From Marchantia polymorpha subsp. ruderalis (taxonomy: Eukaryota; Streptophyta; Marchantiopsida; Marchantiales; Marchantiaceae), in NCBI GenBank assembly GCA_037833965.1, contig AP031357.1:3740001-3804000 (forward strand): a DNA stretch of 64,000 nucleotides. Direction: 5' to 3'. The number at the start of each line of letters is the position of its first letter. Position 1 is the first letter of the stretch. Shown here piece by piece: positions 3,395-52,352 of this stretch. The notes beneath the pieces were generated by a model. The model was given only the letters and a program-made list of their open reading frames with translations, ran no database searches and was not told the origin of the DNA. The translations under genes and the position numbers were made by a program.

Positions 3395-3426
3395 GATAGC
3401 GTAGTGTTAGTTATGACCTTTGAGGG

Positions 3427-21967: not shown

Positions 21968-22002
<35 letters not shown>

Positions 22003-26130: not shown

Positions 26131-26252
26131 CTCATAACTTCTCCATTCCTGATCCATCTCCGACGCTCTTGGGCTCGTTAGAATGAGCGTCCCGAGCTCT
26201 TTCTAATGCAACTTCAACCAACTGGATCTACCGTGTATTCCGATTGTTATGA
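26131..26252. repeat. Dyad module in U3 of E
   Basis: Single copy of the module that is triplicated in D: CTCATAACT, then CTTGGGCTCGTTAGAAT, GAGCTCTTTCTAAT and GTTATGAAG. The inner inverted repeat is less perfect than in D. The E 5' LTR has the equivalent near 57904. Confidence 0.6.
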
Positions 26253-26619
26253 AGGTTTCCCCTTTCCGCGCTAGCGGCGCTTCGCCGAAGGCGCACTCAT
26301 GGTCGGACGCCTTTAGAGGTCCGGGCCCTTCTCCTGACGTCTTTAGCAAAACCTCCTCCTGAGGTGTCTGCGCCGGAAGCGTAGCTTCCTTATACGCTGG
26401 AGGCGCGTGAGTAGAGACACCTCAGAAAAGGAGCTTTTGCCGAAGGCGCCGAAGACATTGGCGTTGGTATATCCGACTACGTGATTCTTTGTGTCCTCGT
26501 GACGATCTCATCAATCCACTCTATTTAGCGTACCCTTCTCTAGCTACAAACACTGCTTTGGTACTAGTTTTCTAAAATTGTTTAAATTCTGCAAAAAAAA
26601 CAAAAAGTGTGTTACCACA

Positions 26620-26636
26620 TGCCCCCCTCCTCAATT
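26620..26636 (-). other. Polypurine tract of E
   Basis: Read on the minus strand, AATTGAGGAGGGGGGCA directly abuts the LTR start TGTGGTAAC and lies about 20 bp after the integrase stop codon. This is the plus-strand priming site. Its position fixes the U3 boundary upstream of the LTR-encoded frame. Confidence 0.88.
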
Positions 26637-26656
26637 GTGAGCGCCCACGCGAACAT

Positions 26657-29497
26657 TTACACGTGGTATTTCTTCAGACGCCATCCGTTCACGCGGGTGC
26701 CTAACCATTCTCCCGTCAGTTCTGCGAGTTGGATGGATCCATTTGGGAAAACTTCTATCACCTTGTAAGGTCCCATCCACCTCAAGTGGAGCTTGCCTGG
26801 AAATCTAGCATGTCTGCTATCGTATAGCAGAGCCAAGTCGCCCTTCTCCAGCAGTACTGGTTTGAGTCTTCGATCGTACTTCTCCTTCCGCCTGAGTTGT
26901 GATTGCTTTGTTCGATCTTCGGCCTCTTGACGTCTTTCCTCCAGTGCCATTACCTCTTGCAGTCGATATGCCTGACTTTCCTCCGCGTCCAGCCTTCTCT
27001 GATCTAAGGTCCTCTTCGTAGGTATCTCGAATTCGATGGGTAAGATCGGATGCTGCCCATAAACTAGAAAGTAAGGTGTTTGCCTGGTGGTGACTTTTTC
27101 TGCCGTTCTATATGCCCATAAGGCGGCCTGTAGCTTGGTGTCCCAGTCATGAGCATGGTTTACAGTCACCTTGAGGAGTATCTTGCAGAGTAATCCATTG
27201 GACTTCTCTGTCAGACCATTTGCCTTGGGGTTGTATGGAGTAGTCTTCCGATGCTTAATCTGGAAGTGCCGCGTCAAACTCTCTATCACCTGATTCAGAA
27301 AGTGCGTTCCTCTGTCACTGACTATTTCTAGGGGGCACCCATAGCGTGTGATGATTGATTCAAATAGGAACCGTGCTACTGCGGCTGCGTCGTCGTGCCT
27401 TGTGGCCTCTGCCTCCACCATCTTGGTCGCATAGTCTGTTGCTACCAATATGTAGCGCCTGCGCGTGCTTTTAGTGACAGGTTGTATTGGTCCCACGAAG
27501 TCGATCCCCCATTTTTCAAATGGTGCCAATGGCATGATTGGTGTAAGAGGCCATCTCGTGGTCGGAGTCGGCCTTCCCGTCCTCTGGCAGCTGTCACATT
27601 TGCGAACGTAGTCGTGTACATCTTTGAACATCGACGGCCACCAGTATCCTGCATTCACAATTTTGGTCACTGTATTTCTGGTGGCGTAGTGACCACCAGC
27701 GTCTTCTGTGTGTATGGCTTTGACAACTCGCGGGACTTCGGACTCCTCTAGACATCTGCACAACCTCTCGTCTGCCATTTTCTTGAACAAGACCCCCTGT
27801 TGAAGCTGGTAAGGTCCCGCTTTATGAACGAAGACTGTGCGCTGCTCCGCATCCAATCCTTCCGGACATTGGAGTGTGAGCAGAAACCTGTATAAGTCCG
27901 CGTACCTGGACTCATGGCTGGCGGACAACTGAAAAAGTTGTTCGTCGGGAAAATCATCCACTACTTCGTCCTCTATGGGTTCGGTCCATAGTCGGGAGAG
28001 GTAGTCCGCGTTCTCATGGTGAACGCCTTTCCTTGTCTGTACAGTGTAGGTGAATTCCTGCAGCAGTAGTACCCACCTGGCAATTCGTCCGGACAGATCC
28101 GCCTTCTTCACCAGGTGCTGTAAGGCGTAATGATCTACATGAAACACGAACTCATAGCAGATCAAATAATGTCGGAACTTCTTACAGGAGTACACCATTC
28201 CCAACGCCTCCCTCTCAGTTGTCGTGTACTTCTTCTCCGCTGCTGACAACTGACGACTCGCGAAGTAAATCGGGTAGTCTTTCTTGTTGTCGTCCTTCTG
28301 ACTGAGAACCACTCCGATTGCAAATGCCGACGTGTCTACATAGACATGGAAAGGTCTGTTCCAATCCGGACTTCTCAGAACCGGAGCCGTCGTCAGTTTG
28401 GCTTTGAGCGTTTCAAAGGCCAGCTGTTGCTCTTTGCCCCACACATAGGGTTCCTCCTTCTTAAGCAGCTTCGTTAGGTTGGCTGCCAAGATGGCGTACA
28501 TATTTATGAACCTTCTGTAATAACCTACATGGCCAAGGAAGGCCCTCAACTCACGCAGGTTCGTTGGCGGCTGCAGTTCGAGAATAATCTTCACCTTCTC
28601 TACATCCACTGCAATGCCATCGGACGAAACTCGGTGCCCCAACAGGATTCCGCTGGTCATGAAGAAAAAACATTTCTCAGGGTGTAAGGACAAGCTGCTC
28701 TCCCTACATCTGTCGAACGTTTGCCGAAGATGGTTAAGGTGCTCCGACCTCTTACCGAAGACACAAAAGTCGTCGATGAAAATTTCTAGGAACTTCCTCA
28801 GGTGCTCTTGGAAGATGTTTGTCATCATCCGCTGGAACGTCGCTGGCGCGTTGCACAGCCCGAACGGCATCTTGTGATAAGCATAGGTTCCCCAGTCGGT
28901 CGTGAAGGTTGTTTTGTCCTTGTCCTGTTCCCTGATGGACACCTGGTTGTAGCCGGAGAATCCGTCTAGGAAACTGTAGCATTCATGCCCTGCTACATGG
29001 TCCAAAATAGAGTCCGTGAAAGGAAGAGGGTGATGATCCTTCCTCGTTGCTGCGTTCAACTTTCGGAAGTCCTGGCACACCCGGATCTTACCCGTCAGTT
29101 TCTTGGGCACGATCACGATAGGCGATACCCACTCGCTACTGAGTACCGGGTAGATGATTCCTGCGCTCAGGTACTTATCGATTTCGTCCTTCACCAATAA
29201 TGAATATTTTGGGTTGAGCCTGTATTGGCGTTGGCGAACCGGAACTGCCTCGTCCAACAAGTCGATCCTGTGCTCTCCATACCTTGCAGGTATGCCTTTC
29301 ATGTCTTCAATCTTCCATGCGAAGACATCCTCATACTGGCGAAGAAACGCCTGTACCCTGTTCAACTCTTCTCCTTGTACCTGGCTTGACACCTTCAAGC
29401 CTTTACCTGGACTGAGTTGCAGTTCGCAGCAATCACTCGGGTCAACAATCCCCTCTGTGTGACTGATCTCGCTTCTGCCCAGTCCGGCTGCTAGTTG
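26657..29497 (-). CDS. pol: pol of element E: RT, RNase H, integrase
   Basis: In frame with gag-protease behind a UAG stop, so probably made by read-through. The reverse transcriptase has VSPIVIVPKK, the FRKLNAATRKDHHPLPF block and a FIDD catalytic motif. RNase H follows with FHVYVDTSAFAIGVVLS and TTTEREALG. Integrase has the zinc-binding H-H-C-C segment (GGHYATRNTV ... CDSC), the catalytic D (WGIDFVG), D (VSDRGTHF) and E (GLTEKSNG) residues, and a C-terminal GPYKVIEVFPNGS module. No chromodomain is visible. The RT wording and tRNA-Asp primer fit the Athila/Tat branch of Ty3/gypsy. The frame looks whole. There is no room for an envelope-like gene between integrase and the polypurine tract. 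Confidence 0.9.
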   Translation of the reverse strand, partial: QLAAGLGRSEISHTEGIVDPSDCCELQLSPGKGLKVSSQVQGEELNRVQAFLRQYEDVFAWKIEDMKGIPARYGEHRIDLLDEAVPVRQRQYRLNPKYSLLVKDEIDKYLSAGIIYPVLSSEWVSPIVIVPKKLTGKIRVCQDFRKLNAATRKDHHPLPFTDSILDHVAGHECYSFLDGFSGYNQVSIREQDKDKTTFTTDWGTYAYHKMPFGLCNAPATFQRMMTNIFQEHLRKFLEIFIDDFCVFGKRSEHLNHLRQTFDRCRESSLSLHPEKCFFFMTSGILLGHRVSSDGIAVDVEKVKIILELQPPTNLRELRAFLGHVGYYRRFINMYAILAANLTKLLKKEEPYVWGKEQQLAFETLKAKLTTAPVLRSPDWNRPFHVYVDTSAFAIGVVLSQKDDNKKDYPIYFASRQLSAAEKKYTTTEREALGMVYSCKKFRHYLICYEFVFHVDHYALQHLVKKADLSGRIARWVLLLQEFTYTVQTRKGVHHENADYLSRLWTEPIEDEVVDDFPDEQLFQLSASHESRYADLYRFLLTLQCPEGLDAEQRTVFVHKAGPYQLQQGVLFKKMADERLCRCLEESEVPRVVKAIHTEDAGGHYATRNTVTKIVNAGYWWPSMFKDVHDYVRKCDSCQRTGRPTPTTRWPLTPIMPLAPFEKWGIDFVGPIQPVTKSTRRRYILVATDYATKMVEAEATRHDDAAAVARFLFESIITRYGCPLEIVSDRGTHFLNQVIESLTRHFQIKHRKTTPYNPKANGLTEKSNGLLCKILLKVTVNHAHDWDTKLQAALWAYRTAEKVTTRQTPYFLVYGQHPILPIEFEIPTKRTLDQRRLDAEESQAYRLQEVMALEERRQEAEDRTKQSQLRRKEKYDRRLKPVLLEKGDLALLYDSRHARFPGKLHLRWMGPYKVIEVFPNGSIQLAELTGEWLGTRVNGWRLKKYHV

Positions 29498-32326
29498 CTA
29501 TTCGTCATCCGGATACACCTCGTCTCCTTCCTCCTCAATGGAGCAGCAAGTGACGTAGCCCACCAATTCCTCCGACGTTTCGGTCTCTGAAGTGCATGAT
29601 GAGCTGGTCTCCCCTCCAGTTGTGTAACCGGAGGTGGTGGAAGGTGTTTCGCCTTCATATGGTACCTTGGTCCACGGTACGGTAATGACAGTCGGAGGGT
29701 CCGCAGGGCTACGGAACTGTAATCTCTTCCTACTCCAGTCACACCTTGCTTTGGCATCGTATAGCCACGGTCTGCCAAGCAGCACATCATAACCTTTCTT
29801 CATCAGAGGTTGCAGTATTATATAGGACAGTTGAAAGTCCACTCCTCCAATGTTGGTTCTCACATTGCTCAACATTCCTAGTGGCATTCTGCGTGTTTGA
29901 TCGGCCAGTCGCAATACTCGGGATGTAGGCTCGAAGGTCTGAAACCCCAAGGAGTTCGCTGTCTCCTCGGTCATGATATTCACGTCCGAGCCGGAGTCCA
30001 CTGGTACCTTCTGTATGACGCAGCCTCCGATCTCTACTTCGATCTCTGGAGGTCCCAGGTCTCCTCCTTCCACTCTGTACACAGCCGGAAGTTTCTCTTT
30101 TCGGGGTTTGCGTGGTCGGCGCAACGAAAGCATCAGCATCCTTCTGTACGTCTTATTGTCTTCCAACAACTGGTGGAAGGAAATATTTGCCCTCTGGCTC
30201 CCTATGTCTTCCACTATGTCGTAGGAAGTGTTGGAAGTCACAGCCGGAAGTTTCCCTGTACTCGCGGTCGGAAGTGGTGTAGGGGGCCTAACCGCCTTCC
30301 GGTCGTCGGATGTCATTCCGGCGCCCAGTGCTTCCTTGATGAGGTGACTCACCTCATCTTTGATGTCCGGAAGGTAATCTCGAGTCCGGGATTCTTGCGA
30401 ATACCTGTCCGCCTTTTCTGAGTTCTGCTCCGGCTGGGTGTTTCTCATAGCCGGAGGTGTACTTGACGTTCTCCTTTGGTCTTCTCTAACTTCTTTAGAC
30501 TTCCTCCTCTCTTCCCTACGCTCGAGGCGGCGAGTGTCCTCGTGGCCTTCTCCTCTCCTCTTCGAACTTCGGGTTTCTACCCGACCGCACATTACTTCTT
30601 CCTCTGGCCATACTTCGTTTCCTTCAGCTGGGTCCAGACTCAGTTCTACCTGGTTGACCTGCACCTCTTCCTTGCCAGGTGTCGATACGAAACGCACGGC
30701 TGGCCTAGGGAGTTGTGGCTGATCACATTCGGCTACTGTATGTCCAGACTTCTTGCAATTGCTGCACAACGGTGCATACCCCATTGGCTTCCTCGGGTGG
30801 GGACAGCTTGGCGCGTAATGCCCCATGTCTCCGCAGTTGTAGCAACCATCGAATTGTGGTCGAGGTCGGTTGTGATTGCCTGGAGGTGCCATGCGTCTTG
30901 GTGGGAGTGTACCCGCCATTTCCCTCGGAACAAAGCGCGGTATATGCACCGGTGGGTTCGGAGTTGTAGCTGGAGCTGTCTGTACCGAGTAGGCGGTGTC
31001 CTCAACCTGCTCAGCATAATACATGGGCGGCTCAGCATAATACATGGGGTTCTCCCACTGTGGTGCCCATTCGACCGCATTCACTGGGTAAGATGGCCGC
31101 GCAGACATGCACTCCGTGTTGGCATGTCCCACCTGTCCGCACGTAGTACACCAGAGATTCGCTCGTGGTCTCGCAGGTGATTTACGTCGGTCTTGGCCTC
31201 CCACTACATGAACTTTCAGGTCCGCAAAATTCTTCACCAGGTTGTCTACCTTGGCTGCGATGTCCCCTTGAGTCTTCACTGGGATTCTCTTACCTCAATC
31301 CTTCTTCTTGATCGTACTGCGTTTCTTCTTCCGTCTTTCTTCTTCTGAAGATGACGAGTCCTCTTCCTCTTCCGAGGAAGAACTTGATTCGGAGGAGCTT
31401 GATTCTTCTGTCGAGGAAGGCGAGTTCCTTCTCTTCCGACGTCCGCCTTGCGACTTCTTCTTCGTCGACCGTCGGTCGCGTCTTCGAGTGTCAAGGGTTG
31501 ACGTCTCAAAGGTCTCCGCGGAAGCTATCACATCTTGGATTGTGTCAGTCTTGCCTCTCCTACAGAAGGTCTCCATTTCTCTTGAGAGCCCTGTCACATA
31601 CCAATCCACTGCCTGTTGTACCGAATATGGTTCTCCTGGGCCTGTCTTCGGAATTCGATCTAGAAGGTCTTGAAATCTCTCAGTATAGTCTCGAAGATTC
31701 TCCTTCCGCTCGCGTCGAAGATTTCAAATCCGGGTCAGAACTCGACTGTCATATCCGAGTTCGCGGAACCGCCTCAGAAACTTTTCCTTGAGCTGAGCCC
31801 AGGTCCGGATGCCAGTGGGGTCGGTGCTCTCATGGTTGTACCAGCTACGCGCTCGTCTGCGTAGCAGGCTAGGAAAGATTCGTAGTCGGTCTTCATCACT
31901 GGTCTCACGATTGGCGATGGAGACAGACTCGAAGAGCTTTATGTATGAATCTGCATCATCGTCGTCGCCCGTTCCCGTGTATCTTGGATACGAATGTTTG
32001 GTGGTAGGTTGGGAAAACACCTGGCGGAGATTGGCTTGATGTTCTGCCATCGGTGATCCTGTCGACGGACTGATCCTAGGTTGGCCAAACTCAGGAAGAG
32101 TTCCTGTCGGAGGGATGTCCAATAGAACTGTTAGCTCAATGCTCTCGGTAGGTGAACGGGAACGCCTTTGTCTTCCAGTAGTCGGTGATGGCGATCTTTC
32201 TGCAGAGTCCTCACCGGGAGTCTTCTTTTTAGTTCGCCGTTTTGTTTCCACGGCTTTTTCTGAATCTCGACGGAGTTTCCGTGTGGCTCTCGCACTCAGG
32301 TTTCCCACATTATCGCTCGTCGACAT
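29498..32326 (-). pseudogene. gag: gag-protease region of element E (fossil)
   Basis: Begins with MSTSDNVGNLSARATRKLRRD, close to the gag start of element G. It contains the retrotransposon gag core (RSWYNHESTDPTG, AQLKEKFLRRFRELG), Ser/Glu-rich and Lys/Arg-rich stretches, three CCHC zinc knuckles (CTTCGQVGHANTEC, CYNCGDMGHYAPSC, CSNCKKSGHTVAEC) and an aspartic protease (VPVDSGSDVNIM). The region is broken, with one or two breaks. Gag packages the RNA into particles, and the protease would process the polyprotein. Confidence 0.85.
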
Positions 32327-32369
32327 TCACCGAGCATTGCTGCTCAAGTATTCTGGTGTTGACGCACTG

Positions 32370-32387
32370 TCCCCGGCAGCGGCGCCA
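32370..32387 (-). other. Primer-binding site of E (tRNA-Asp type)
   Basis: Minus-strand TGGCGCCGCTGCCGGGGA. It differs at one position from the complement of the plant tRNA-Asp 3' end (from memory TGGCGCCGTTGCCGGGGA). It lies 22 bp from the LTR end, with a small inverted repeat (AGGAG ... CTTCT) in the gap. Confidence 0.85.
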
Positions 32388-33782
32388 AAAAGAAGTTGTC
32401 GGCTCCTTATGTAATAACCCACCAAAGGCTAAAACTGCAGTATGGTGGTAAAAAGATCGAACCCACAGGGACAGAGGTAACACACAGAGTAAAAGTGTCA
32501 CGTTTAACAGACTTTTGTAGAGTTTGAATTCTAGGCGACTGTCACTCCCAGAAATACTGCAGTGCTCGACTCGGAGGCTCGACTCGGAGGAGGATCTCAA
32601 CTCGGAGGATGCTCGGAGGATGCACGGTACAGCGTGGTCACTCAACACACACACACACAGACACACCTGAAACTGGCAAAAAGCACAACTCGGAGGTCGG
32701 TCAGGACCTCCGCTTCGGATTTCAGGAGGAAAGTGCCTCACAAGTTCACTCAGAGGTTCTGCAGGTAGTGCCTCCCACTCCGGCTTTTACTGCCCTTCCG
32801 CCAGGAACTAGCGGGGGTACCCGGACTGGACTTCCCACTTCGGAACGAAGCCTCTACATACGCCGTGGACGTCACCCTCGACTATCACACCAAACGCAGG
32901 GAGTGCAGACCCGACTGAGAACTTACTGAAAACACGATCCAGTAACACACACACAACCTGAATTACAAACCAAGGTTTACACGAAGTAATGAAACTTCAC
33001 ATTGGCATTCAGGGGAAACTTCCCGTAGGAGTACAATCAGGATATGTCACTCGAAGGAGTAAGGGGGAACTGTTCAAGTATCTAACTCGTAGCCGGCTCT
33101 GAGCATCAGAAATCACCCGCAGGTGCAGATCCGCACTACTCAAGTCTCTAACCGGGTACTAGCTCTGAACATTCAGCCGAAGGCCTTCAACTACATCATA
33201 CGGTAACTTCGCTATGCTGCAGCTTCTCTACGTGGTGCCAAGACCAAAATGCACAAACACGTCAAGAAAGTGAGTGTGGTACCCCACTTTTGGCAATTTT
33301 GAGGAAATTAAAACATTTTTTGGAAAACTGTACCCTGGCAGCATTGTAAATAGCCTTCGGTACATCAAAACGGAGTGAATCCGGAAGATCGCGGGGATTC
33401 TCGAGGGATCTTGTAGAATCTAGGATTTGGGGTGCAGCAGTAAGGACAGGCACCACCCTCCCTGCGAGCTCTGCAGTTAGGATCCCTGTGACGCAAGGCG
33501 CAAAACCCGCCTTCGGAGGTTGCGTCCGCGGCGGTAGGGAAATCCTCCATAATTAGGTCAACCCTCGGGCGCCTTGACCAAGTTAGGGTCTCGTTGGAAA
33601 GAGCTCGACGCACTGATTCCAACGAGTCCAAGAACGCTTGGAACGGATGAGGACTTAGGGAGTTATCACTATTGGAAGATACGGAGACGGTCGCCTTCGG
33701 CGGAAGGAGGTCGCCACCGGCGGGAATTCCGCCTACGCGGAAGGGGGAATCAAGTTTTGTCCTATGCGCGGACGAAGGCGTT

Positions 33783-33863
33783 CGCCTGTGCACAGGCGAA
33801 GTAGGGTTTGGGGAGGCGCGAAGTCCGCCTACGCACAGGCGTTCGCCTGTGCACAGGCGCTTC
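33783..33863. repeat. GCCTGTGCACAGGC palindromes in noncoding U3 of F
   Basis: Several copies or near copies of the perfect 14-bp palindrome GCCTGTGCACAGGC within 80 bp of noncoding U3. Further copies lie near 34150 and 34220. Matching clusters occur at the equivalent positions of A, C, G and H. Confidence 0.85.
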
Positions 33864-36800
33864 GGCGTCGGCGGAAAATCCGCCTTGGGCCCTAGAAATG
33901 CGCCTTGTGAGGTAGAAAGCGTACGGCGCCTTCCGCGCCAGCGCGGCGCCGCGGACGAGCAAGGAGCCGCCAGAGTAATCAAATCTGTACGGACCATGCG
34001 GACGGGACGGGTGGATGCGCTCTTTGACGGACGGAGTTGCGGCGGCGGAAGCGCCGACGAAGAGACAAGGAACGGACAAACTGGACGGGGACGGCTGACC
34101 ACGGTCAACGCCTTCCGCGCCAGCGCGACGCCGCGCACGGAATTCGCATGCGCACAGGCGAGCGCCTGTGCACAGGAGGATGAAGTTCCGCGCCGGCGAA
34201 GAATCCGCCGAGGAGTCTGCCTGCGCACAGGCAGGAGTTGAACTTTTGTCCGACATGCGGACACACGCGTCAAGGCAGAAGGGGATTGGCCGAGGGGCGG
34301 TACGAACAAGTGTACCGCGCAAGGCGGAAAACTCGCCTTCGGCGCTGCGCTCCCATGTCCGCGGGGTAATACGCTCGCGGAGTTCAAATCCGCCAATTCG
34401 AGCGTGAGAGTTTAATCGGCGACGGCGGAGCGTGAAGCCGCGCGTGAGAGCGGAGACCGTTCCAGCGTAGAGCCGGCGCGGCCATCAAGTGAGACGTCCT
34501 CCACGAGCAAGAGCCGACCATGACCTTCGACCGGGCGGCGGAGAGCGTCCCATTCTTGAATTCGCGATTCCAATCTCTTGTGCGCGCTGCGCGCATCCAT
34601 CTGCTGGCTGCTAAACATTCTCGACGCCGCCGCACAGGGGATTTCTTGGTGATTGAGGGAGAAGTGAGTGCGCGGGATTGGGAATTGAGGGCGATTAGAG
34701 TTTGCCGAGAGAGGAAGGAGCTCGGGCGGTGCGGAAGTAGAATGAGCGGGCGAGCGAACTCCAGGAACGCAATGACGAGACCGGGCAGATTGCGGATGGT
34801 GCCACTTCGCCTACCACAGAACGGGCTGCGCGCTTTCGAGGAGCGCTTAATAGCAAGAAAGCTCGATTTCTTGCTATGGGGATGGAACTACATCTGTGCG
34901 AATATGGTGCGCGAGTGGCTAGAGCCACAGGGACCACCCTCGCGCGGATTGCGTCCGCATGTTGATCGGTGGACAGTCCAAGATTGGGCGCAGGCATTGG
35001 GAAGATGTGCCGGCATGCCAGGGCATCTCCTTTTCGACAGTGAGAGCATCAAGGTGACCAAGCAGGAAGAGGCGCAATTTGTGGAGCTATTCAAGACCGG
35101 GAGGTCTACCAAGAATGGGTACAGGACCCGTGATTACAAGGATCGATTTCGCCGGACTTTGTCCGCGGCGCTGATGCAATTACTGCAGCCACACCGCGCC
35201 TGCTACATCACATTGTGGCAGGTCTCTTTTGTGGAGTGCGTCATCGAGGGAACTCCAATTCACTGGGCGAGCATCCTGCACAGGGTGATGCGACAGCACG
35301 CTTTTGAGGAGAAGGGGGGAACTCTAAACCATCTCTCTCCTTTCCTCATCAATTTTTATCGACAGCGGAATTGTTTGACAGCGGCGGAGCTTGAGCATTT
35401 TCCGCTGTTGTCCGTCGACCATCCTGGGAAGTATGTACGGGAGAATGAGGTCGACACTGATGCAGAGGAGTCACCGACTTCTACCCCATCAAGGCGGAGG
35501 GACGAAGGGAGAAACACTCCTGCAGCACGAGTGCCGCGGAAGCGGCGATGGAGAGAAGAGTCCGAAGAGGAGCAGCATCAAGAACCCTCTGCTCCCATTC
35601 GACCGCGGCCGTTGTACGAGTCATACAGCCGGCCGAAGCAGAAGGCACGCAGACAGGTGTTACCAGCCAACAGTGCGGACACGGCGACGATTGCGACGGA
35701 GAAAGGAAGTGCGTCGCCAGAGAAGCATGAGGAAGCGCGGACGACCGCAGGAGCAACGGACCACGCTGCAGCCTCGACGAGAGAGAGGCCGCCTACGGGC
35801 CAAGGGCCTCCGGAGTTACCACGTGCGTTGCGGACAGATGTTCTGTTTGCGCACAGACGAGACTCCGCGGACGGACGAGCCTCCGCGGACAGGCGATCAC
35901 AAGTGGACGTAGATCTACGCTTACGCGTGGGAAGGAGCAGTCCGCCTGTGCACAGGTCACCTCCACACGTGCCGCCTGTGCACAGGCAGGAATCACCCCC
36001 GTTCCAACGTAGGAAGGGGAAGGAGCCGGCGGAAGAGCCGCCTACGAGACACCGGCCCTCGGGGCCAGACCCTCCGGCGCACCACGCGCCGCAATTTGCG
36101 CCTTCGGCGCCAGGGCCTTCGAGCCGAGGAGACACGAGCAGGGAGCGTGCGGAGGCCGCACCATCGGCGGGTAGTCCGCCGATAGATCCGCCTTCGGCGG
36201 TAGGGCCTATAGGCCAAGGGACATTGTGGTACCCCACTTTTGGCAATTTTGAGGAAATTAAAACATTTTTGGAAAACTGTACCCTGGCAGCATTGTAAAT
36301 AGCCTTCGGTACATCAAAACGGAGTGAAACCGGAAGATCGCGGGGATTCTCGAGGGACCTTGTAGAATCTGGGATTTGGGGTGCAGCAGTAAGGACAGGC
36401 ACCACCCTCCCTGCGAGCTCTGCAGTTACGACCCCTACGACGCAAGGCGCAAAAACCGCCTTCGGAGGTTGCGTCCGCGGCTGTAGGGAAACCCTCCATA
36501 ATTAGGTCAACCCTCGGGCGCCTTGACCAAGTTAGGGTCCCGTTGGAAAGAGCTCGACGCACTGATTCCAACGAGTCCAAGAACGCTTGGAACGGATGAG
36601 GACTTAGGGAGTTATCACTATTGGAAGAAACGGAGGCGGTCGCCTACGGCGGGAAGAGTTCGCCACCGGCGCGAATTCCGCCTACGCGGAAGGGGGAATC
36701 AAGTTTTGTCCTATGCGCAGACGAAGGCCTTCGCCTGTGCACAGGCGAAGTAGGGGTAGGGGAGGCGCGAAGTCCGCCTACGCACAGGCGACCGCCTGTG

Positions 36801-37468
36801 CACAGGCGCTTCGGCGTCGGCGGAAAATCCGCCTTGGGCCCTAGAAATGCGCCTTGTGAGGTAGAAGGTGTACGGCGCCTTCCGCGCCAGCGCAGCGCCG
36901 CGTACGGCGGAAGAGCCGCCAGAGTAATCAAATCGGTACGGACCATGCGGACGGGACGGGTGGATGCGCTCTTGGACGGACGGAGTTGCGGCGGCGGAAG
37001 CGCCGACGAAGAGACAAGGAACGGACAGACTGGACGGAGACGGCTGACCACGGTCAACGCCTTCCGCGCCAGCGCGACGCCGCGCACGGAATTCGCCTGC
37101 GCACAGGCGACCGCCTGTGCACAGGAGGATGAAGTTCCGTGCCGGCGGAGCATCCGCCGAGGCTCCTGCCTGCGCACAGGCAGGAGTTGAACTTTTGTCC
37201 GACATGCGGACACACGCGTCAAGGCAGAGGGGGATTGGCCGAGGGGCGGTACGAACAAGTGTACCGCGCAAGGCGGAAAACTCGCCCTCGGCGCTACGCC
37301 CCCATGTCCGCGGGGTAATACGCTCGCGGAGTTCAAATCCGCCAATTCGAGCGTGAGAGTTTAATCGACGACGGCGGAGCGTGAAGCCGCGCGTGAGAGC
37401 GAAGACCGTTCCAGCGTACAGCCGGCGCGGCCATCAAGTGAGACGTTCTTCACGAGCAAGAGCCGACC

Positions 37469-40400
37469 ATGACCTTCGACCGGGCGGCGGAGAACGTCCC
37501 ATTCTTGAATTCGAGATTCCAATCTCTTGTGCGCGCTGCGCGCATCCATCTGCTGGCTGCTAAACATTCTCGACGTCGTCGCACAGGAGATTTCTTGTTG
37601 ATTGAGGGAGAAGTGAATGCGCGTGATTTGGAATTGAGGGCGATTAGAGTTTGCCGAGAGAGAAAGAAGCTCGGGCGGTGCGGAAGTAGAATGAGCGGGC
37701 GAGCGAACCCCAGGAACGCAATGACGAGACCGAGCAGATTGCGGATGGTGCCACTTCGCCTACCACAGAACGGGCTGCGCGCTTTCGAGGAGCGCTTAAT
37801 AGCAAGAAAGCTCGATTTCTTGCTATGGGGATGGAACTACATCTGTGCGAATATGGTGCGCGAGTGGCTAGAGCCACAGGGACCACCCTCGCGCGGATTG
37901 CGTCCGCATGTTGATCGGAGGACAGTCCAAGATTGGGCGCAGGCGTTGGGAAGATGTGCTGGCATGCCAGGGCATCTCCTTTTCGACAGTGAGAGCATCA
38001 AGGTGACCAAGCAGGAAGAGGCGCAATTTGTGGAGCTGTTCAAGACCGGGAGGTCTACCAAGAATGGGTACAGGACCCGTGATTACAAGGATCGATTTCG
38101 CCGGACCTTGTCCGCGGCGCTGATGCAATTACTGCAGCCGCACCGCGCCTGCTACATCACATTGTGGCAGGTCTCTTTTGTGGAGTGCGTCATCGAGGGA
38201 ACTCCAATTCACTGGGCGAGCATCCTGCACAGGGTGATGCGACAGCACGCGTTTGAGGAGAAGGGGGGAACTCTAAACCATCTTTCTCCTTTCCTCATCA
38301 ATTTTTATCGACAGCGGAATTGTTTGACAGCGGCGGAGCTTGAACATTTTCCGCCATTGTCCATCGACCATCCCGGGAAGTATGTGCGGGAGAATGAGGT
38401 CGACACTGATGCAGAGGAGTCACCGACTTCTACCCCATCAAGGCGGAGGGACGAAGGGAGACACACTCCTGCAGCACGAGTGCCGCGGAAGCGGCGATGG
38501 AGGGAAGAGTCTGAAGAGGAGCAGCATCAAGAACCCTCTGCTCCCATTCGACCGCGGCCGCTGTGCGAGTCATACAGCCGGCCGAAGCAGAAGGCACGCA
38601 GACTGGTGTTACCAGCCGACAGTGCGGACACGGCGACGATTGCGACGGAGAAAGGAAGTGCGTCGCCAGAGAAGCATGAGGAAGCGCGGACGACCGTAGG
38701 AGCAACGGGCCACGCTGCAACCTCGACGGGAGAGAGGCCGCCTACGGGCCAAGGGCCTCCGGAGTTACCACGTGCGATGCGGACAGATGTTCCGTTTGCG
38801 CACAAACGAGCCTCCGCGGACGGACGAGCCTCCGCGGACAGGCGATCACAAGTGGACGTGGATCTACGCTTACGCGTGGGAAGGAGCAGTCCGCCTGTGC
38901 ACAGGCGCTCGCCTGTTCACAGGTCGCCTGTGCACAAGACACCTCCACACGTGCCGCCTGTACACAGGCAAGAATCACCCCCGTTCCAACGTAGGAAGGG
39001 GAAGGAGCCGGCGGAAGAACCGCCTACGAGACACCGGCCCTCGGGGCCAGACCCTCCGGCGCACCACGCGCCGCAATTTGCGCCTTCGGCGCCAGGGCCT
39101 TCGAGCCGAGGAGATACGAGCAGGGAGCGTGCGGAGGCCGCACCATCGGCGGGAAGTCCGCCGATAGATGCGCCTTCGGCGGTAGGGCCTATAGGCCAAG
39201 GGACATCGGGCGAGCGGCCCCCGGCCATGTCGCCTTCGGCGATGGATGTCCGCGGCGCTACGCCTGCGGCGGACAAGGCGCCGGCAATTGCGCCTGCGCA
39301 CGGGCCGGGCACAGCCCCCACGGACCGATCAAGGGAGCAGCAACAGACGGAGGAGCGGAGTGACTGTCCGCGGGATGAAATTTCGATGCGCGATGCGCAA
39401 TCAAACCCCGCGCAGCCACCCTCCGCTCGATCGCCTTCGGCGGCGGGCGACGGCGGCAGAGAGGACGCGGTAGACTACCAACAAGCGAGCGACGGGGATG
39501 CCGCACGGGTACATTCGCCTTCCGCCTTAGACATTTTGGCAACGAGCAGCGAGGCTGCAGCCGTGCCTTCGCAGGCAGCACACGTCGATGACGTGCAGCC
39601 CCACTCGGGGCAGTCGCCGACGCAATCAATGGCGATTGAAATTCTCCACTCGGATGATGACGACGGAGGCTCCACGGAAGAAATGTCAGGAGCAGAAGAC
39701 ACCGAGGAGGAGGAGGAGGAAATTGTTGGAGCGCCGGCGGCGGCGCTCTCTGAGCAGGTGATTCCGTTGCTGAGGTACTTGGATCGCAAGGTCGATAAAT
39801 ACGCCGACCCACTCCAGCCGGGATCTTACATCGAGTTAGTGCGCAGGCGGACTCGCACTAAAGTCCACACCAGCAAGCTGTTAGCTAGAGTGGACCAGGA
39901 GTTGAGGGAATTGAAGGAGAAGCATGCATGCTTGTGGGGTCAGTACAAACTTAATCAGAAATTCTACAAGCACTCCGAGAAGATGAAGGATAAGAAACTG
40001 GACGAGCTCACTAAGGAGCAGGTGAAGGTCAAGGAAGCACTCATTTCTGAGCAGGCCCAGAATCGGATTTTGTCAGAGGAGCTCGTGCGACAGACGCGGT
40101 TGTTGGAACAATGTCAGCTCGCACGGCAGGCGGATGAAGAGTTAATCCGCAGGTTACAGTCAGAGTGTGGCGAATTGAGAGCGCAACGTGCTGAAGCCGA
40201 ATCGCAATTAGTGATAATTGAAGAGGATCGCAGGAAGGAGGCGGATCGCACGAAGGTGGAGACGGCGAGGCGTGTCGCCCACTGTCTCAAGGGCTACGCC
40301 CACTGGGAAGTGAAGGCGCAGGAGAAACTCACACTGCGTGAGTTTGAATTGCGCGCAGCCGGGTTGTTGTCAGGCGACAGTAGGAGTCGGCGGAAGGTAG

Positions 40401-40609
40401 CAAAGAAGCTCGATGCCTTTCTGTCGAAGGCACAGGATACCATGTCCGCACTCGAAGTGGAGGTGTCCGCGGCGTTGCAGCGTTTGGGACTGCGCAGTCG
40501 AGCGGAAGATTGGCAGGGTAGGGAGTTAGTGCGCGGCAGTCGGCCGCGCAGGAGACGTAGTACAGGTTCCGCGGAGTGTAGTGTAGCGTGGTTCCGTGCA
40601 GGCGTGTAG
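37469..40609 (+). CDS. LTR-encoded coiled-coil protein, group I (5' LTR of G)
   Basis: Longest intact copy, 1046 codons from the ATG at 37469. M85 (37721) aligns with the group II start and could be the true start. Order: variable N-terminal tail (1-84). Conserved module about 85-315 (FDFLLWGWNY-like block near 116, WAQALGRCAG near 156, EEKGGTLNHLSP near 263). Pro/Arg/Ser linker about 320-730 with PVHR repeats. Acidic SDDDD and EEEEEE patch, the QVIPLLRYLDRK motif, coiled coil about 805-935, CLKGYAHWEV and LREFELRAA module about 935-1015, Arg-rich tail. No membrane segment or enzyme motif is recognised. The basic/acidic layout and coiled coil suggest a multimer that binds nucleic acid or protein; this is inference. 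Codon and base use are extremely CpG-rich. Confidence 0.8.
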   Translation: MTFDRAAENVPFLNSRFQSLVRAARIHLLAAKHSRRRRTGDFLLIEGEVNARDLELRAIRVCRERKKLGRCGSRMSGRANPRNAMTRPSRLRMVPLRLPQNGLRAFEERLIARKLDFLLWGWNYICANMVREWLEPQGPPSRGLRPHVDRRTVQDWAQALGRCAGMPGHLLFDSESIKVTKQEEAQFVELFKTGRSTKNGYRTRDYKDRFRRTLSAALMQLLQPHRACYITLWQVSFVECVIEGTPIHWASILHRVMRQHAFEEKGGTLNHLSPFLINFYRQRNCLTAAELEHFPPLSIDHPGKYVRENEVDTDAEESPTSTPSRRRDEGRHTPAARVPRKRRWREESEEEQHQEPSAPIRPRPLCESYSRPKQKARRLVLPADSADTATIATEKGSASPEKHEEARTTVGATGHAATSTGERPPTGQGPPELPRAMRTDVPFAHKRASADGRASADRRSQVDVDLRLRVGRSSPPVHRRSPVHRSPVHKTPPHVPPVHRQESPPFQRRKGKEPAEEPPTRHRPSGPDPPAHHAPQFAPSAPGPSSRGDTSRERAEAAPSAGSPPIDAPSAVGPIGQGTSGERPPAMSPSAMDVRGATPAADKAPAIAPAHGPGTAPTDRSREQQQTEERSDCPRDEISMRDAQSNPAQPPSARSPSAAGDGGREDAVDYQQASDGDAARVHSPSALDILATSSEAAAVPSQAAHVDDVQPHSGQSPTQSMAIEILHSDDDDGGSTEEMSGAEDTEEEEEEIVGAPAAALSEQVIPLLRYLDRKVDKYADPLQPGSYIELVRRRTRTKVHTSKLLARVDQELRELKEKHACLWGQYKLNQKFYKHSEKMKDKKLDELTKEQVKVKEALISEQAQNRILSEELVRQTRLLEQCQLARQADEELIRRLQSECGELRAQRAEAESQLVIIEEDRRKEADRTKVETARRVAHCLKGYAHWEVKAQEKLTLREFELRAAGLLSGDSRSRRKVAKKLDAFLSKAQDTMSALEVEVSAALQRLGLRSRAEDWQGRELVRGSRPRRRRSTGSAECSVAWFRAGV
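38892..38970. repeat. GTGCAC palindrome array inside the LTR frame of G
   Basis: Tandem or near-tandem copies of the GCCTGTGCACAGGC motif that also populates noncoding U3. Translated, they give SPVHR/PPVHR units. Four or five units are recognisable here, against fewer in F (near 35943-35995). Confidence 0.8.
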
Positions 40610-40645
40610 CGTAGTGCAGTGTAGTGCTAGGTAGGACTTAGAAGG

Positions 40646-40674
40646 TATAAAATAGTTCCAGGCGTTTTGCCTGG
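40646..40674 (+). promoter_or_regulatory. LTR TATA box and covarying hairpin (G)
   Basis: TATAAAATAG is followed by CCAGGC-GTTTT-GCCTGG. Group II and B have CAAGGC ... GCCTTG at the same place, so one base pair changed on both sides. The TATA lies 37 bp after the LTR-frame stop. Confidence 0.65.
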
Positions 40675-41640
40675 GGTTCTTTCCTATCAGAAGTGCAGAT
40701 CAGGAACCCATTTCCTTTGCGTGTTTGTGTCCTTGAGTTCTGTCACCACGCACGAGGAGTTACAACTTAGCGTTCCGCATTTTGTAGCTGAAGGCCTTCG
40801 GCCGAATGTTCAGAGCTAGTACATTGGTTAGAGACTTGAGTAGTTCGGATCTGCACCTGCGGGTGACTGCCGATGCTCAGAGCCAGTGACTAGTTAGATA
40901 CTTGAACAGTTTCGCCCCTACACCTTCGAGTGTTTCTTTCTGATTGTACTCCTTGGGATTTTTCCCCTAAATGCCAAAGTGAAGTTTTGCCACTTCGTGT
41001 AAGCCTTGGTTGTAAATTCAGGTTACGCTGCAGCAGGTGCCTAGAGGGTAACCCCTGTAGTATTTCTGGAATGACAAGTGCCTGAGAATTCAAACTCTTC
41101 AATAGACTGTTGTTGTGTTACTGGAATGTTTCTCAGTGAGTCCTTCAGTGCGGACCTGTGTTCTCTGCGCGTTTTGTGAGTTGAGAGTGTTGTTCACCGC
41201 GTCTGAGTGACTTCGATCCGAAGTAGGTAGTCCAAACCGGGTTTCCTACACTAGCAGCAAGCTAGTGGAAGCGTTGTAAAAGCCGGAGTTGGAAGTCACT
41301 GCCCGCAGCTTTGCCGAGTGTGCTCGTGAGAGACTTTCCCCCCTGAAATCTTGAAGTAGAGGTCCTAACGGATCTCTGGGTTGTGTTTCTGTAGTTTCAG
41401 GTGTGTGTGTGTGTGTGTGTTACGCTGCACTGTGCGACCTCCGAATGCGCTCCGAGTGGACACTTGCAGTATTTCTGGGAGTGACAGTTGCCTGAGAATT
41501 CAAACTCCTCAATAGTCTGTTAAAACGTGACACTTTGTACCCTGTGTGTTCCTCTGTCCCTGTGGGTTCGACCTTTCTACCACTATATTGCAGTTTTAGC
41601 CTTTAGTGGGTTATTACATAAGAAGCCGACAACTTCTTTT

Positions 41641-41658
41641 TGGCGCCTCTGCCGGGGA
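41641..41658 (+). other. Primer-binding site of G (tRNA-Asp type)
   Basis: TGGCGCCTCTGCCGGGGA. It differs at two positions from the plant tRNA-Asp complement. It lies 22 bp after the LTR end, separated by AGAAG-CCGACAA-CTTCT, an inverted repeat conserved in E with a wobble pair. Confidence 0.82.
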
Positions 41659-41704
41659 CAGTTGCGTCAACACCGGGGTTTTTACGAGCAGCCATGCTCG
41701 GTGA

Positions 41705-44536
41705 ATGTCGACTGGGGCTAGCGGGAGCAACCTAAGTGCTAGAGCTGTCCGCAGGTTCCGACGAGATTCAGAGAAGGCCGTGGAAGAGACACGGCGTCAA
41801 AACAAGAAAACACCAAAAAGAGTACCTAAGCCTAGTTCGGCCGACATCCTTGGGGAACCTACCCCCAGCGACTCGGACCCAAACTTGGTGCTTACAGTTC
41901 TACTAGATATTCCTTGCACGGACCCGCCTCGTGAATTAGAAACGAACGGAGAACCGTCGACAGACACACCGATGGCGGACGGACAAGCCAATGTGCGGCT
42001 ACCTCAGCCGATTACTAAACATTCCTACCCAAAGTATAAAGGGAGTGGGGATGACGACGATGCAGATTCATACATCAAGTTGTTCGAATCGGTGTCTATT
42101 GCCAATCGCGAGATCGCAGACGACGACCGACTAAGGATCTTTCCAAGCCTTCTGCGGAAGAAAGCGAGGAGTTGGTACAATCACGAGAGCATCGATCCGA
42201 CTGGGTTGACAACATGGGCCCAACTGAAGGAGAAGTTCCTTCGCCGCTTCCGCGAGCTCGGCTACGACAGCCGGGTTTTGACAAAGTTACGTAATTTGCA
42301 GCGAGAGAAGAAGGAGAGTCTGCGTGACTACACTGAGAGATTTCTGGACCTCCTTGACAGAATACCGAAAACAGGACCAGGGTCCCCTTTCTCGGTACAA
42401 CAAGCTGTGGATTGGTACGTGACCGGTTTAACTCGGGAGATGGAGACCTTTTGCCGACGCAGCAAGTGCGACACTATTGAGGATGTGATTGCATCGGCAG
42501 AAGCCTTCGAAACCTCCACTCTCAACCGAAGAGGGAGAGAGAGACGGGAGTCGAAGGAGCGAAAACCGAAGGGAGGGCGAAGACGACGTAGAGGTACAAC
42601 TCCGTCATCGGAGGAATCGTCTTCGGACGAGAACCGTTCCTCATCCGAAGAAGAGGAAACCTCATCGTCGGAGGAGGAGAAGAAGAGGAAGAAGCATGGG
42701 GCAGCGAAGAAAAAGGGCACCCGACGAGTAACTACGGACAGAGCGCCGGGAGACATAGCCTTGAAGATGGAGACCCTTGTGAAGGACTTCGCCGATCTCA
42801 AGGTTCAAGTGGTAGGCGGGCATGATCGCCGAAAATCACCCGGGAGAGTGCGAGCGAACTTATGGTGTACTACGTGCGGGGCGGTGGGACATGCAAACAC
42901 CGAGTGCCTTACCACCCGTCCGTCATATCCAGTCAACGCAGTAGAGTGGGCACAACCGTACTATGGAGAGCACCCCCAGTACTATGGAGAGGCTAGCGAA
43001 GAGACAGCCTACGCCGTCCAGTCGGTTCCTACCCCTACTGCAGTTTCAGCAATGCAAGTCCCACGATATCATCCGGTGGATCGGGCCACTACAGTACCCG
43101 TGAGGCGGAGAGCACCTCCAGGGACGTTTGACCCACCGCCACCGCGAGCTTGTTATAATTGCGGGGAAGTTGGACACTTCTCACCACAGTGTCCCCATCC
43201 AAAAAGGCGAAACGATTATGTTCCGACATGTAGTAATTGCAAGAAGACCGGGCATACTGCGCCAGAGTGTGATCAGCCACCAGTCCCTCGGCCAGCGGTA
43301 CGATTTGTGAACCCTCCTGCCAAGGAGGACGTCCAAGTTAACCAGGTCGAAGTAGGTTCAGACGGGGATGACGAAGACGAAGAATGGCCGGCGGAAGAGG
43401 TTATGTGCGCACGGGTCGAAACTCGTAGCTCCAAGAAATCGAAGGAGCAAGAGCGTGACACTCGCAAGCACGAACGGAGAACCGACGACCGGACGGGAAA
43501 AGGGAAGGAGAAGACATCCAGCAAGTCCGACTTGCGACCTGCACGGAAGTCTTCGGCTACGCGAGAGGCACCAGCAGTGCGCCCCCAGACAGCAGTCGAG
43601 GACGAGCCAATACGCTTGCTGAAACGGGACTATGCTCCGGATATCCGCAACGAGGTAACCAACCTGTTGAAGGAAGCGATCCGCACTCAAAAGGACCCAC
43701 CGCGGCCAGACTTGACATCCTTCCTTGGGGCGAAGTTGGCAGCCACCGTGGAACCTCGCAGAGCGTCGCCGCCGACCCCGGCGACCCAACGCGCCCACTA
43801 TGACTTGGTCGAAGATCTCGGGAGTCGAAAAGTGAACATCACGTTCAAGCAGCTCTTGGAGGACAATAAGACGTATCGGAGAATGTTGATGCTTTCGCTA
43901 CGGCGTCCGCGGAAGCCGCGCGCATCCACATCCTCTCAAGTATATCAAGTGGAGAGCGAAGACCAAGGGCCACCAAAGATCGATGTGGAAATAGAAGGGT
44001 GTTGTGTACGCAGGGTGCCAATCGACTCTGGATCGGGAGTCAACATAATGACGGAGGATACCGCGAGAGCCTTGGGGTTCAGTCAATACGAACCCTCGAA
44101 GCGTGTGTTGAGATTAGCGGATCAGACGCGGAGAATGCCTGCAGGTATGCTGCGCAATGTCAAGACAACCATCGGGGGTGCGGACTTTCGGTTGACGTAT
44201 ATCATCCTTCAACCGATGATGAAGCAGGGCTATGACGTTCTGCTCGGGCGACCATGGCTATATGGCGCACAAGTCAGATGTGATTGGCGAAGGCATCGCC
44301 TTAAGTTTCCCCATCCTTCGGAACCGACCAAAACCATTACGGTGCCCTGGAGTAGGGTCAGACACGAAGGAGAGACCCCATCGACAAGTGCAGGTTACAC
44401 ATCGGGCGGGGACAGTGAGTCGACCGCGCGATCGGATTCCAGTGGTACCGAATCCGATTATTTCGTGGGATTCGTTGCCTGCTGTTCGGTGGGAGAAGAA
44501 GAAGAGCCGGAAGCTATTCAGCCGGAAGACGAATAG
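41705..44536 (+). CDS. gag: gag-protease of element G
   Basis: 943 codons from the ATG at 41705. N-terminal basic region, retrotransposon gag core about 120-270 (ARSWYNHESIDPTG, LKEKFLRRFRELG, GLTREMETFCRR), then Arg-rich and Ser/Glu-rich stretches. Three CX2CX4HX4C zinc knuckles at residues 388-401, 483-496 and 509-522. Aspartic protease with catalytic Asp774 in VPIDSGSGVNIM and the LLGRPWLY block. The acidic C-terminus ends at a UAG followed by CAATTA, and pol continues in the same frame. Looks whole. The gag core and protease wording agree closely with element E although the LTR groups differ, so E and G are sister families. Confidence 0.9.
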   Translation: MSTGASGSNLSARAVRRFRRDSEKAVEETRRQNKKTPKRVPKPSSADILGEPTPSDSDPNLVLTVLLDIPCTDPPRELETNGEPSTDTPMADGQANVRLPQPITKHSYPKYKGSGDDDDADSYIKLFESVSIANREIADDDRLRIFPSLLRKKARSWYNHESIDPTGLTTWAQLKEKFLRRFRELGYDSRVLTKLRNLQREKKESLRDYTERFLDLLDRIPKTGPGSPFSVQQAVDWYVTGLTREMETFCRRSKCDTIEDVIASAEAFETSTLNRRGRERRESKERKPKGGRRRRRGTTPSSEESSSDENRSSSEEEETSSSEEEKKRKKHGAAKKKGTRRVTTDRAPGDIALKMETLVKDFADLKVQVVGGHDRRKSPGRVRANLWCTTCGAVGHANTECLTTRPSYPVNAVEWAQPYYGEHPQYYGEASEETAYAVQSVPTPTAVSAMQVPRYHPVDRATTVPVRRRAPPGTFDPPPPRACYNCGEVGHFSPQCPHPKRRNDYVPTCSNCKKTGHTAPECDQPPVPRPAVRFVNPPAKEDVQVNQVEVGSDGDDEDEEWPAEEVMCARVETRSSKKSKEQERDTRKHERRTDDRTGKGKEKTSSKSDLRPARKSSATREAPAVRPQTAVEDEPIRLLKRDYAPDIRNEVTNLLKEAIRTQKDPPRPDLTSFLGAKLAATVEPRRASPPTPATQRAHYDLVEDLGSRKVNITFKQLLEDNKTYRRMLMLSLRRPRKPRASTSSQVYQVESEDQGPPKIDVEIEGCCVRRVPIDSGSGVNIMTEDTARALGFSQYEPSKRVLRLADQTRRMPAGMLRNVKTTIGGADFRLTYIILQPMMKQGYDVLLGRPWLYGAQVRCDWRRHRLKFPHPSEPTKTITVPWSRVRHEGETPSTSAGYTSGGDSESTARSDSSGTESDYFVGFVACCSVGEEEEPEAIQPEDE

Positions 44537-44542
44537 CAATTA
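44534..44542 (+). promoter_or_regulatory. Leaky-stop context UAG-CAA-UUA between gag-protease and pol
   Basis: The stop and next six bases match the tobacco mosaic virus read-through signal UAG CAR YYA. Element E has UAG CAA CUA at the same junction (29500 downwards), also with pol in frame. Read-through is a known way for retroelements to set the Gag to Pol ratio. Confidence 0.75.
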
Positions 44543-46440
44543 ACTGTGGGACTGGGAAGGAGTGAGACGAGTCACACCAAGGGCATTGTCGACCCTAGTG
44601 ACTGTCACGAAGTACAACTCAGTCCCGACAAGTGCTTGAAGGTATCAAGCGCAGTGAGAGGAGACGAGCTAAGGAAAGTACAGGCATTCCTTAGCCATTA
44701 TGTCGACGTCTTCGCCTGGAAGATCGAAGACATGAAGGGGATACCTGCACGGTATGGGGAACACCGTATCGATTTACTGGACGACTCAGTACCCATACGA
44801 CAGCGCCAGTATCGCCTCAACCCAAAATACTCCTTGCTAGTTAAGGAGGAGATAGATAAGTACTTGAGTGCTGGTATTATTTACCCTGTGCTCAGCAGTG
44901 AGTGGGTGTCGCCGATTGTTATCGTACCCAAGAAGTTGACGGGTAAGATACGAGTGTGTCAGGATTTCCGGAAGTTGAATGCAGCAACACGCAAGGATCA
45001 TCACCCGTTACCATTCACGGATGCCATTCTAGACCATGTCGCAGGACATGAATGTTATAGCTTCCTGGATGGGTTCTCAGGTTACAATCAGGTGTCTATC
45101 CGGGAACAGGACAAGGATAAAACTACGTTCACAACCGACTGGGGAACTTACGCATACCACAAGATGCCCTTCGGTCTGTGCAACGCGCCTGCCACTTTTC
45201 AACGGATGATGACCAATATCTTCCAGGAACAACTGAGGAAGTTCCTGGAAATATTCATAGATGACTTCTGTGTCTTTGGGAAGCGGTCTGAACACCTAAG
45301 TCACTTGAAGCAGACCTTCGATAAATGTAGAGAGAGCAGTTTATCACTGCATCCCGACAAGTGCTTTTTCTTTATGACTAGTGGGATCTTGTTGGGTCAT
45401 CGGGTCTCGGCAGACGGCATTGCGGTGGACATCGAGAAGGTCAAGGTTATACTCGAGCTTGAGCCACCCACGAATCTAAGAGAGCTGCGAGCATTCCTGG
45501 GTCATGTGGGCTACTACCGAAGATTCATACACCTGTATGCAATACTGGCGGCGGACCTGACCAAGTTGTTGAAGAAGGACGAGCCTTATGCTTGGGGTGC
45601 GAACCAGCAGTCAGCATTTGAGGCTCTTAAAGCGAAACTCACGACTGCTCCCGTACTAAGGAGTCCAGACTGGAATCGACCATTCCATGTTTACGTTGAC
45701 ACATCTGCATTCGCCATCGGTGTAGTACTGAGTCAAAAGGATGACAACAAAAAGGACTACCCGATCTACTTCGCGAGCCGACAGCTGTCTCTAGCAGAGC
45801 GGAAGTACACCACGACGGAGAGAGAAGCGTTGGGGATGGTGTACTCCTGTAAAAAGTTCCGTCACTACCTAATATGCTACGAGTTTGTGTTCCATGTGGA
45901 CCACTACGCATTGCAACACCTAGTCAAGAAAGCCGACCTATCCGGTCGGATCGCCAGGTGGGTGTTGTTACTACAAGAGTTCACCTACACAGTCCAGACC
46001 AGGAAAGGGGTGCACCACGAAAATGCGGATTACTTGTCCCGATTATGGACCCAGCCGACAGAGGAGGAATTGGTGGACGATTTTCCAGATGAAGAGTTAT
46101 TTCAGTTGTCTGCAGGACATGAGTCCCGCTATGCCGACCTGTATCGATATCTGCTAACCCTCCAGTGTCCCGTAGGCATGGATTTGGAACAGCGAACTGT
46201 CTTTATTCATAAGGCAGGCCCGTACCAACTCCAGCAGGGGGTTTTGTTCAAGAAGATGGTAGATGAGCGCTTATGCAGATGCCTGGAGGAATCAGAGGTA
46301 CCAAGAATAGTGAGTGCGATGCATACAGAGGAGGCGGGTGGACACTATGCCACCAGGAACACGGTCACAAAGATTCTAAATGCGGGGTATTGGTGGCCGA
46401 CCATGTTTAAGGATGTTCTCGATTACATCCGCAAGTGTGA
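44537..46440 (+). pseudogene. pol: pol of element G, incomplete (fossil)
   Basis: Same order as pol of E: RT with VSPIVIVPKK, FRKLNAATRKDHHPLPF and FIDD, RNase H with FHVYVDTSAFAIGVVLS and TTTEREALG, then the start of integrase with its H-H-C-C region. The C-terminal part is missing, so the copy is non-functional. What remains is very close to E at protein level, in contrast to the more divergent LTR-encoded proteins. Confidence 0.87.
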
Positions 46441-46574
46441 CAGTTGCCTGAGAATTCAAACTCCTCAATAGTCTGTAAAAACGTGACACTTTGTACCCTG
46501 TGTGTTCCTCTGTCCCTGTGGGTTCGACCTTTCTACCACTATATTGCAGTTTTAGCCTTTAGTGGGTTATTACA
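46440..46574 (+). repeat. 3' LTR remnant of G
   Basis: The last 135 bp of a group I LTR, ending in GGGTTATTACA next to the GACAT target duplication. Confidence 0.85.
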
Positions 46575-52200: not shown

Positions 52201-52352
52201 GGGAGGTGTCCGCGGCGTTGCAGCGGTTGGTACTGCGCAGTCGAGCGGAAGAGTGGCAGGGTAGGGAGTTAGTGCGCGGCAGTCGGCCGCGCAGGAGACG
52301 TAGTACAGGTTCCGCGGAGTGTAGTGTAGCGTGGTTCCGTGCAGGCATGTAG
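49226..52352 (+). pseudogene. LTR-encoded coiled-coil ORF, group I copy in H (fossil)
   Basis: Same domain order as the copy in G and very similar to it: N-terminal module, PVHR linker, acidic patch, coiled coil, CLKGYAHWEV module and Arg-rich tail. The palindrome-coded linker (50637-50716) has one of the highest repeat counts seen here. Broken, with about two breaks. Confidence 0.7.
50637..50716. repeat. GTGCAC palindrome array inside the LTR frame of H
   Basis: Four near-tandem CCTGTGCACAGG units coding for SPVHR-like repeats. The array differs in length from those in A, F and G. Confidence 0.8.

Follow-up and report, generated by a model that had tools for sequence, protein, structure and literature searches.

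A large protein-coding gene inside the long terminal repeats of Ty3/gypsy retrotransposons of Marchantia polymorpha

Can a plant retrotransposon keep a large gene entirely inside its long terminal repeat (LTR)? LTRs are treated as noncoding control sequence, and a coding LTR is best known from a mouse tumour virus. The question is raised by a stretch of 64,000 nt of contig AP031357.1 of Marchantia polymorpha subsp. ruderalis (the window, within which all copies were compared), where a first-pass annotation had reported long open frames inside the LTRs of two Ty3/gypsy elements, called here G and E. The frames are indeed present, once in G and in both LTRs of E, and they represent a real gene held under purifying constraint. 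The features on which this answer depends are the following.

36225..41618, plus strand: 5' LTR of G, 5394 bp, ends TGTGGTACC...GGTTATTACA (TG...CA), target-site duplication (TSD) GACAT; aligns end to end with the solo LTRs S and A
37469..40609, plus strand: U3 frame of G, 1046 codons, the part common with E beginning near Met 85 (37721)
40646..40651, plus strand: TATA box of G, the only sense-strand TATAWA of the LTR, 36 nt after the stop codon
41641..41658, plus strand: primer site of G, TGGCGCCTCTGCCGGGGA, 22 nt past the LTR end
46437..46574 (left edge approximate), plus strand: remnant of the 3' LTR of G, its last ~138 bp, ending GGTTATTACA and followed by TSD GACAT
21734..26619, minus strand: 3' LTR of E, 4886 bp, TSD CGGAG, ends TGTGG...TTACA
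22705..25260, minus strand: U3 frame in the 3' LTR of E, about 850 codons from the first ATG
26622..26632, minus strand: polypurine tract of E, adjoining the 3' LTR
32370..32387, minus strand: primer site of E, 22 nt past the end of the 5' LTR
54380..58392, minus strand: first part of the 5' LTR of E, the rest at 32410-33274, split by insertion of T
54481..57033, minus strand: U3 frame in the 5' LTR of E, about 850 codons from the first ATG, open, 99.5% amino acid identity to the other E frame

The LTR limits are fixed independently of the frame, as had been claimed. G as a whole occupies 36225-46574 between the two copies of its TSD (36220-36224 and 46575-46579). E covers 21734-58392; its 3' LTR is uninterrupted and lies 2 nt from the polypurine tract GAGGAGGGGGG, and its 5' LTR, divided in two by an insertion of later date, is followed by TGGCGCCGCTGCCGGGGA. 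LTRs of this superfamily in the window have the ends TGTGG...TTACA, and four further frame-bearing copies (S, A, T, B) share these ends and have matching 5-bp duplications. They are listed here with a partial E-type copy (W) and an LTR without the gene (D).

47979..53361, plus strand: solo LTR S, TSD GGCGT, frame broken by indels
10526..15891, minus strand: solo LTR A, TSD GTGGT, frame broken by indels
33275..54379, plus strand: solo LTR T, TSD GTGAG, interrupted by G and S
17185..61648, plus strand: G-type LTR B, TSD AATGA, interrupted by D and E, first 290 frame codons open
1..4349, plus strand: E-type LTR W, truncated by the start of the window; its frame carries a single stop and, relative to E, no indel
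18337..20824, minus strand: LTR D, 2488 bp, TSD ATGGC, without the gene

By self-comparison, G and S lie in T, T in the 5' LTR of E, and E and D in B; A stands alone. Over 17185-61648, members of the superfamily have inserted into one another's LTRs. Because the two E LTRs pair (99.45% identity over 4017 positions), the E frame is inside the LTR, and the same holds for G, S, A, T and B, as homology from end to end and their target duplications show. In every copy with both ends in the window, the frame is enclosed by the LTR ends, so that ends closer in, with the frame outside the repeat, were not seen among these copies. In E the pol frame stops at 26657 and the 3' LTR starts 37 nt further on, at 26619; the gap is therefore too short to hold the frame, and the polypurine tract is upstream of the gene. 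A location between pol and the LTR is thus ruled out by TSDs, polypurine tract and pol end, and E has no such frame in the internal region from pol to the 3' LTR, the position of extra open reading frames (ORFs) in other plant elements. The earlier observation that in E a polypurine tract abuts one LTR stands but for the two intervening nucleotides; a primer site, putatively of the tRNA-Asp type, does follow the other LTR and begins 22 nt past its end, in E as in G. Plant surveys look for primer sites 0-5 nt from the LTR end. The 22-nt spacer (41619-41640, plus strand; 32388-32409, minus strand) is nearly identical in G and E; a hairpin drawn in it by eye was unsupported, ViennaRNA pairing the spacer with the primer site instead.

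Within the LTR, the frame was also correctly assigned to U3, as judged from the TATA box: the sole sense-strand TATAWA occurs 33-36 nt after the frame end in all four LTRs scanned (G, S, A, E), which would place the U3/R border beyond the stop codon. The two E frames differ by one in-frame 3-nt gap, and the 84 N-terminal codons of the G frame are not common with E. Starting 2 nt beyond the stop-codon position and continuing to its end, LTR D shares 97% identity with G, S and A. Its 5' part resembles them only in patches (~65-76%), no sense-strand run without stops exceeds 137 codons, and D carries its own TSD with a different, gene-less U3. Since D shares the promoter-R-U5 block with G and lacks the gene, the block works with and without it, and recombination between U3 types has occurred. 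If instead the promoter were in the first 1.2 kb of the LTR, the frame would be a leader gene translated first from genomic RNA. Some plant elements have an ORF upstream of gag, 1.2-1.4 kb of LTR precede the frame, and the transcription start is deduced from the TATA box; against this stand the TATAWA following the frame in four of four LTRs, the retention by D of TATA-R-U5 at 97% without a frame, and the 3' flank being the least diverged noncoding part (1.5% versus 4.7% for the 5' flank, G versus S), which together make a leader gene improbable.

Is the frame open merely as a by-product of composition or repeats in a noncoding, G+C-rich region with a low-complexity middle part? The longest stop-free run is 1055 codons in G and 863 in E, and the maxima among 1000 Markov-resampled LTRs of each were 490 and 374. 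In its own frame the ratio of nonsynonymous to synonymous differences per site (pN/pS) is 0.26 for G versus S (1040 codons), 0.27 for G versus A (1038 codons) and 0.27 for E versus W (850 codons, one stop). For the same three pairs it is 0.86-1.85 in the two other sense and two antisense frames, and 0.30-0.37 in the remaining antisense frame because the variable positions of that frame mirror third codon positions. Stops number 0, 0 and 1 in frame zero and 15-43 in other frames. Between E and W there are no gaps in 2553 coding positions versus 11 gap events in 1789 flank positions, and between G and S third codon positions have diverged by 5.7%, like the 5' flank, with positions 1 and 2 at ~2%. 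The three copies of the frame that are open from end to end in the window are that of G and the two of E; W carries a single stop, indels break the frame in S and A, and T and B are interrupted by insertions. Because S and A are already broken in this way, decay after insertion makes the pN/pS values conservative. Random open sequence without codon constraint, the alternative raised with the initial proposal, is thus refuted by resampling, frame-specific constraint and indel depletion, and a noncoding by-product can be set aside with near certainty.

What does the gene encode? Relatives of the protein were sought with P0001 (the U3-frame protein of G), a six-member profile and the N-domain alone, by a word-based protein search in which P0001 and the profile were scored against the 7991 and 7994 candidates sharing most words, and the N-domain against all 426. 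P0001 found 4 relatives, each annotated as a hypothetical protein of Marchantia polymorpha subsp. ruderalis; the profile retrieved 26, of which 25 carry the name Marchantia (the remaining one is P0016); the N-domain found 11, all Marchantia. Over all searches there are 34 distinct relatives, spread over many Marchantia scaffolds, of which 33 are from Marchantia polymorpha and every named one is Marchantia; Mp_8g15400, one of them, matches 58% of the E frame at 96% identity, which puts the window in M. polymorpha or a very close relative. No named relative outside Marchantia polymorpha was found, an absence that holds for the searched database and the word-based method. P0001 has no Pfam match at E <= 0.1. 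The best Pfam matches of six members at E <= 10 were Extensin_1 (one member, 1.9e-4) and CENP-K (two members, best 0.0018), both interpreted as look-alikes of the proline-rich and coiled-coil kinds; with 19 members at E <= 1, seven such weak families were matched, by one or two members each; the best NCBIfam match was only 0.16; and query A1 matched no chain of the PDB at E <= 1. A remote link to plant transposon domains, noticed by eye, is at most a lead; plant mobile domain, Transposase_28 and Athila ORF-1 are absent from the Pfam matches of both member sets. The initial judgement that the product belongs to no recognised family is thus borne out by the Pfam and NCBIfam scans and by the Marchantia origin of all named relatives.

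The protein consists of an N-domain of ~230 residues, a low-complexity linker predicted to be disordered and basic/proline-rich, a conserved block QVVPLLRYLDRK...SYVELVRRRTRTKV, a long coiled coil and a basic tail. AlphaFold models (mean pLDDT, predicted local distance difference test, of 50.6 and 43.3) are confident only for the coiled coil, with helix 600-730 modelled at high confidence. From its coiled coil and clusters of basic residues, the product may be a factor that is nuclear or associates with nucleic acids. An envelope-like or cell-to-cell movement protein, located after pol as is usual and with an upstream displacement of the polypurine tract, would account for the sense orientation and the place 3' of pol in the RNA, which match env-like extra frames as described in part of PMC7264820. 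This is rated still less probable than a leader gene: no membrane segment was found (maximum 19-residue mean hydropathy 1.22 and 1.14), and there is no family match, with coiled coil and disorder instead.

The explanation considered best, and probable by a modest measure, is that these Marchantia Ty3/gypsy LTRs carry a real U3 accessory gene whose product is a soluble, trans-acting and most likely nuclear regulatory or accessory factor of the element. Genomic RNA would start after the TATA box and carry the gene once, 3' of pol; reverse transcription would copy it into both LTRs, as follows from standard retroelement biology for a single 3' RNA copy, so that a solo LTR would keep a copy. The gene would be expressed from a spliced or U3-internal mRNA, and the product would be a soluble protein with a helical N-domain, a disordered basic/proline-rich linker and a long coiled coil, acting in trans, most likely in the nucleus. 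Several points weigh against this explanation: no element in the window combines intact gag-pol with the gene (G has lost the integrase core, and the gag of E has stops); the N-domain, modelled as helical, is the poor part of the prediction (mean pLDDT 43.3); the nuclear location is read from composition; and LTR D moved without the gene, which is therefore not needed in cis, although such mobility agrees with action in trans.

A special case of the same explanation is a fast-evolving anti-silencing or self-recognising factor that binds its own LTR and counters host silencing, with gene and target in one LTR; its model, the VANC protein of Arabidopsis VANDAL elements, reportedly acts against silencing. 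Between E and G, the U3 frame has 50% amino acid identity over 823 codons with synonymous sites saturated (differences at the three codon positions 347, 264 and 504), gag-protease 62%, and reverse transcriptase (RT)-RNase H-integrase 90%; the frame is therefore the fastest-changing gene of the element. Its pN/pS is 0.47 versus 0.07 for pol. This rapid divergence, that of noncoding U3, and the coiled coil with basic clusters fit such a factor, but no DNA-binding domain was detected and weak constraint on the disordered linker could explain the fast change; an anti-silencing role is accordingly an unlikely, if not negligible, specification of the accessory-gene reading.

Accessory coding reaches into U3 in retroviral nef and foamy-virus bel/bet, which overlap U3 partly, whereas the Marchantia gene lies with its flanks wholly inside. 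A closer comparison, limited to the part of PMC4667437 that treats it, is sag of mouse mammary tumour virus (MMTV), which lies mostly in U3, has an omega of 0.289, is found mostly in solo LTRs, and is transcribed from start sites in env, within the 3' U3 and at the border of the 5' U3 and R. Like it, the Marchantia gene is in U3 and in both LTRs, is kept in solo LTRs and is under purifying selection; host kingdom, element and protein differ, Sag being a superantigen. The parallel drawn earlier thus holds for position, and kinship was not detected, P0001 and A1 having no match in Pfam at E <= 0.1 and in PDB at E <= 1, respectively. Plant Ty3/gypsy elements have extra ORFs (env-like, Grande gene23, RIRE2, Retand and PvRetro13), some with nuclear or SMC-like coiled-coil products, according to the relevant portion of PMC7264820. 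As described there, they too are additional genes 3' in non-chromovirus plant elements, but they are internal, between pol and the 3' LTR, and the Grande, RIRE2 and Retand frames are antisense, whereas the Marchantia gene is inside the LTR and in sense.

The remainder of the two elements has the following features.

41705..44536, plus strand: gag-protease frame of G (Retrotrans_gag, two zinc knuckles, aspartyl protease), ending TAG CAA TTA
44537..46450, plus strand: RT-RNase H and start of integrase of G, same frame, integrase core missing
26660..32326, minus strand: gag-pol of E in one frame, two in-frame TGA stops in gag, TAG CAA CTA before RT

The Ty3/gypsy order of gag, protease, RT, RNase H and integrase between LTRs is complete in E and lacks the integrase core in G. 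No chromodomain was matched after the integrase in E pol at E <= 0.1, unlike chromoviruses, and only the RT-linked RNase H was matched in E and G, with no second, archaeal-type RNase H as in Tat elements. Protease and RT are in the same frame, parted by TAG CAA TTA in G (44534-44536, plus strand) and TAG CAA CTA in E (29498-29500, minus strand), presumably the tobacco-mosaic-type leaky stop context UAG CAR YYA; TAG CAR YYA occurs eight times on the two strands of the window, so is not rare by itself, and is at this junction in both families. Two further matches (62571 and 62671, plus strand) lie between LTR fragments, in the unassigned stretch 62193-63235. Ty3/gypsy elements without a second RNase H are reported from both Marchantia genomes studied in PMC10508981, whose section on them mentions no LTR gene; lack of the second RNase H and of a chromodomain, and the possible tRNA-Asp primer site, are at most compatible with elements of that type.

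The arrangement is that of an LTR-retroelement accessory gene, a kind already known as such, moved wholly into U3. A large selected gene in this position means two gene copies per insertion, and solo-LTR formation spreads the gene instead of deleting it. Annotation pipelines will miss it or call it a host "hypothetical protein", which seems to have happened in Marchantia polymorpha with 33 such named entries. The gene is a positional plant counterpart of MMTV sag and offers a tractable system in a model plant. More tentatively, and with confidence well short of even, a land-plant retrotransposon lineage may have relocated a trans-acting gene to the LTR, every insertion, solo LTRs included, thus leaving a copy beside the cis signals on which it may act. 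Gene-less relatives like D, with the promoter-R-U5 block in common, would live off it, and an ordinary by-product of recombination would in this way have scattered hundreds of candidate regulatory genes across the genome.
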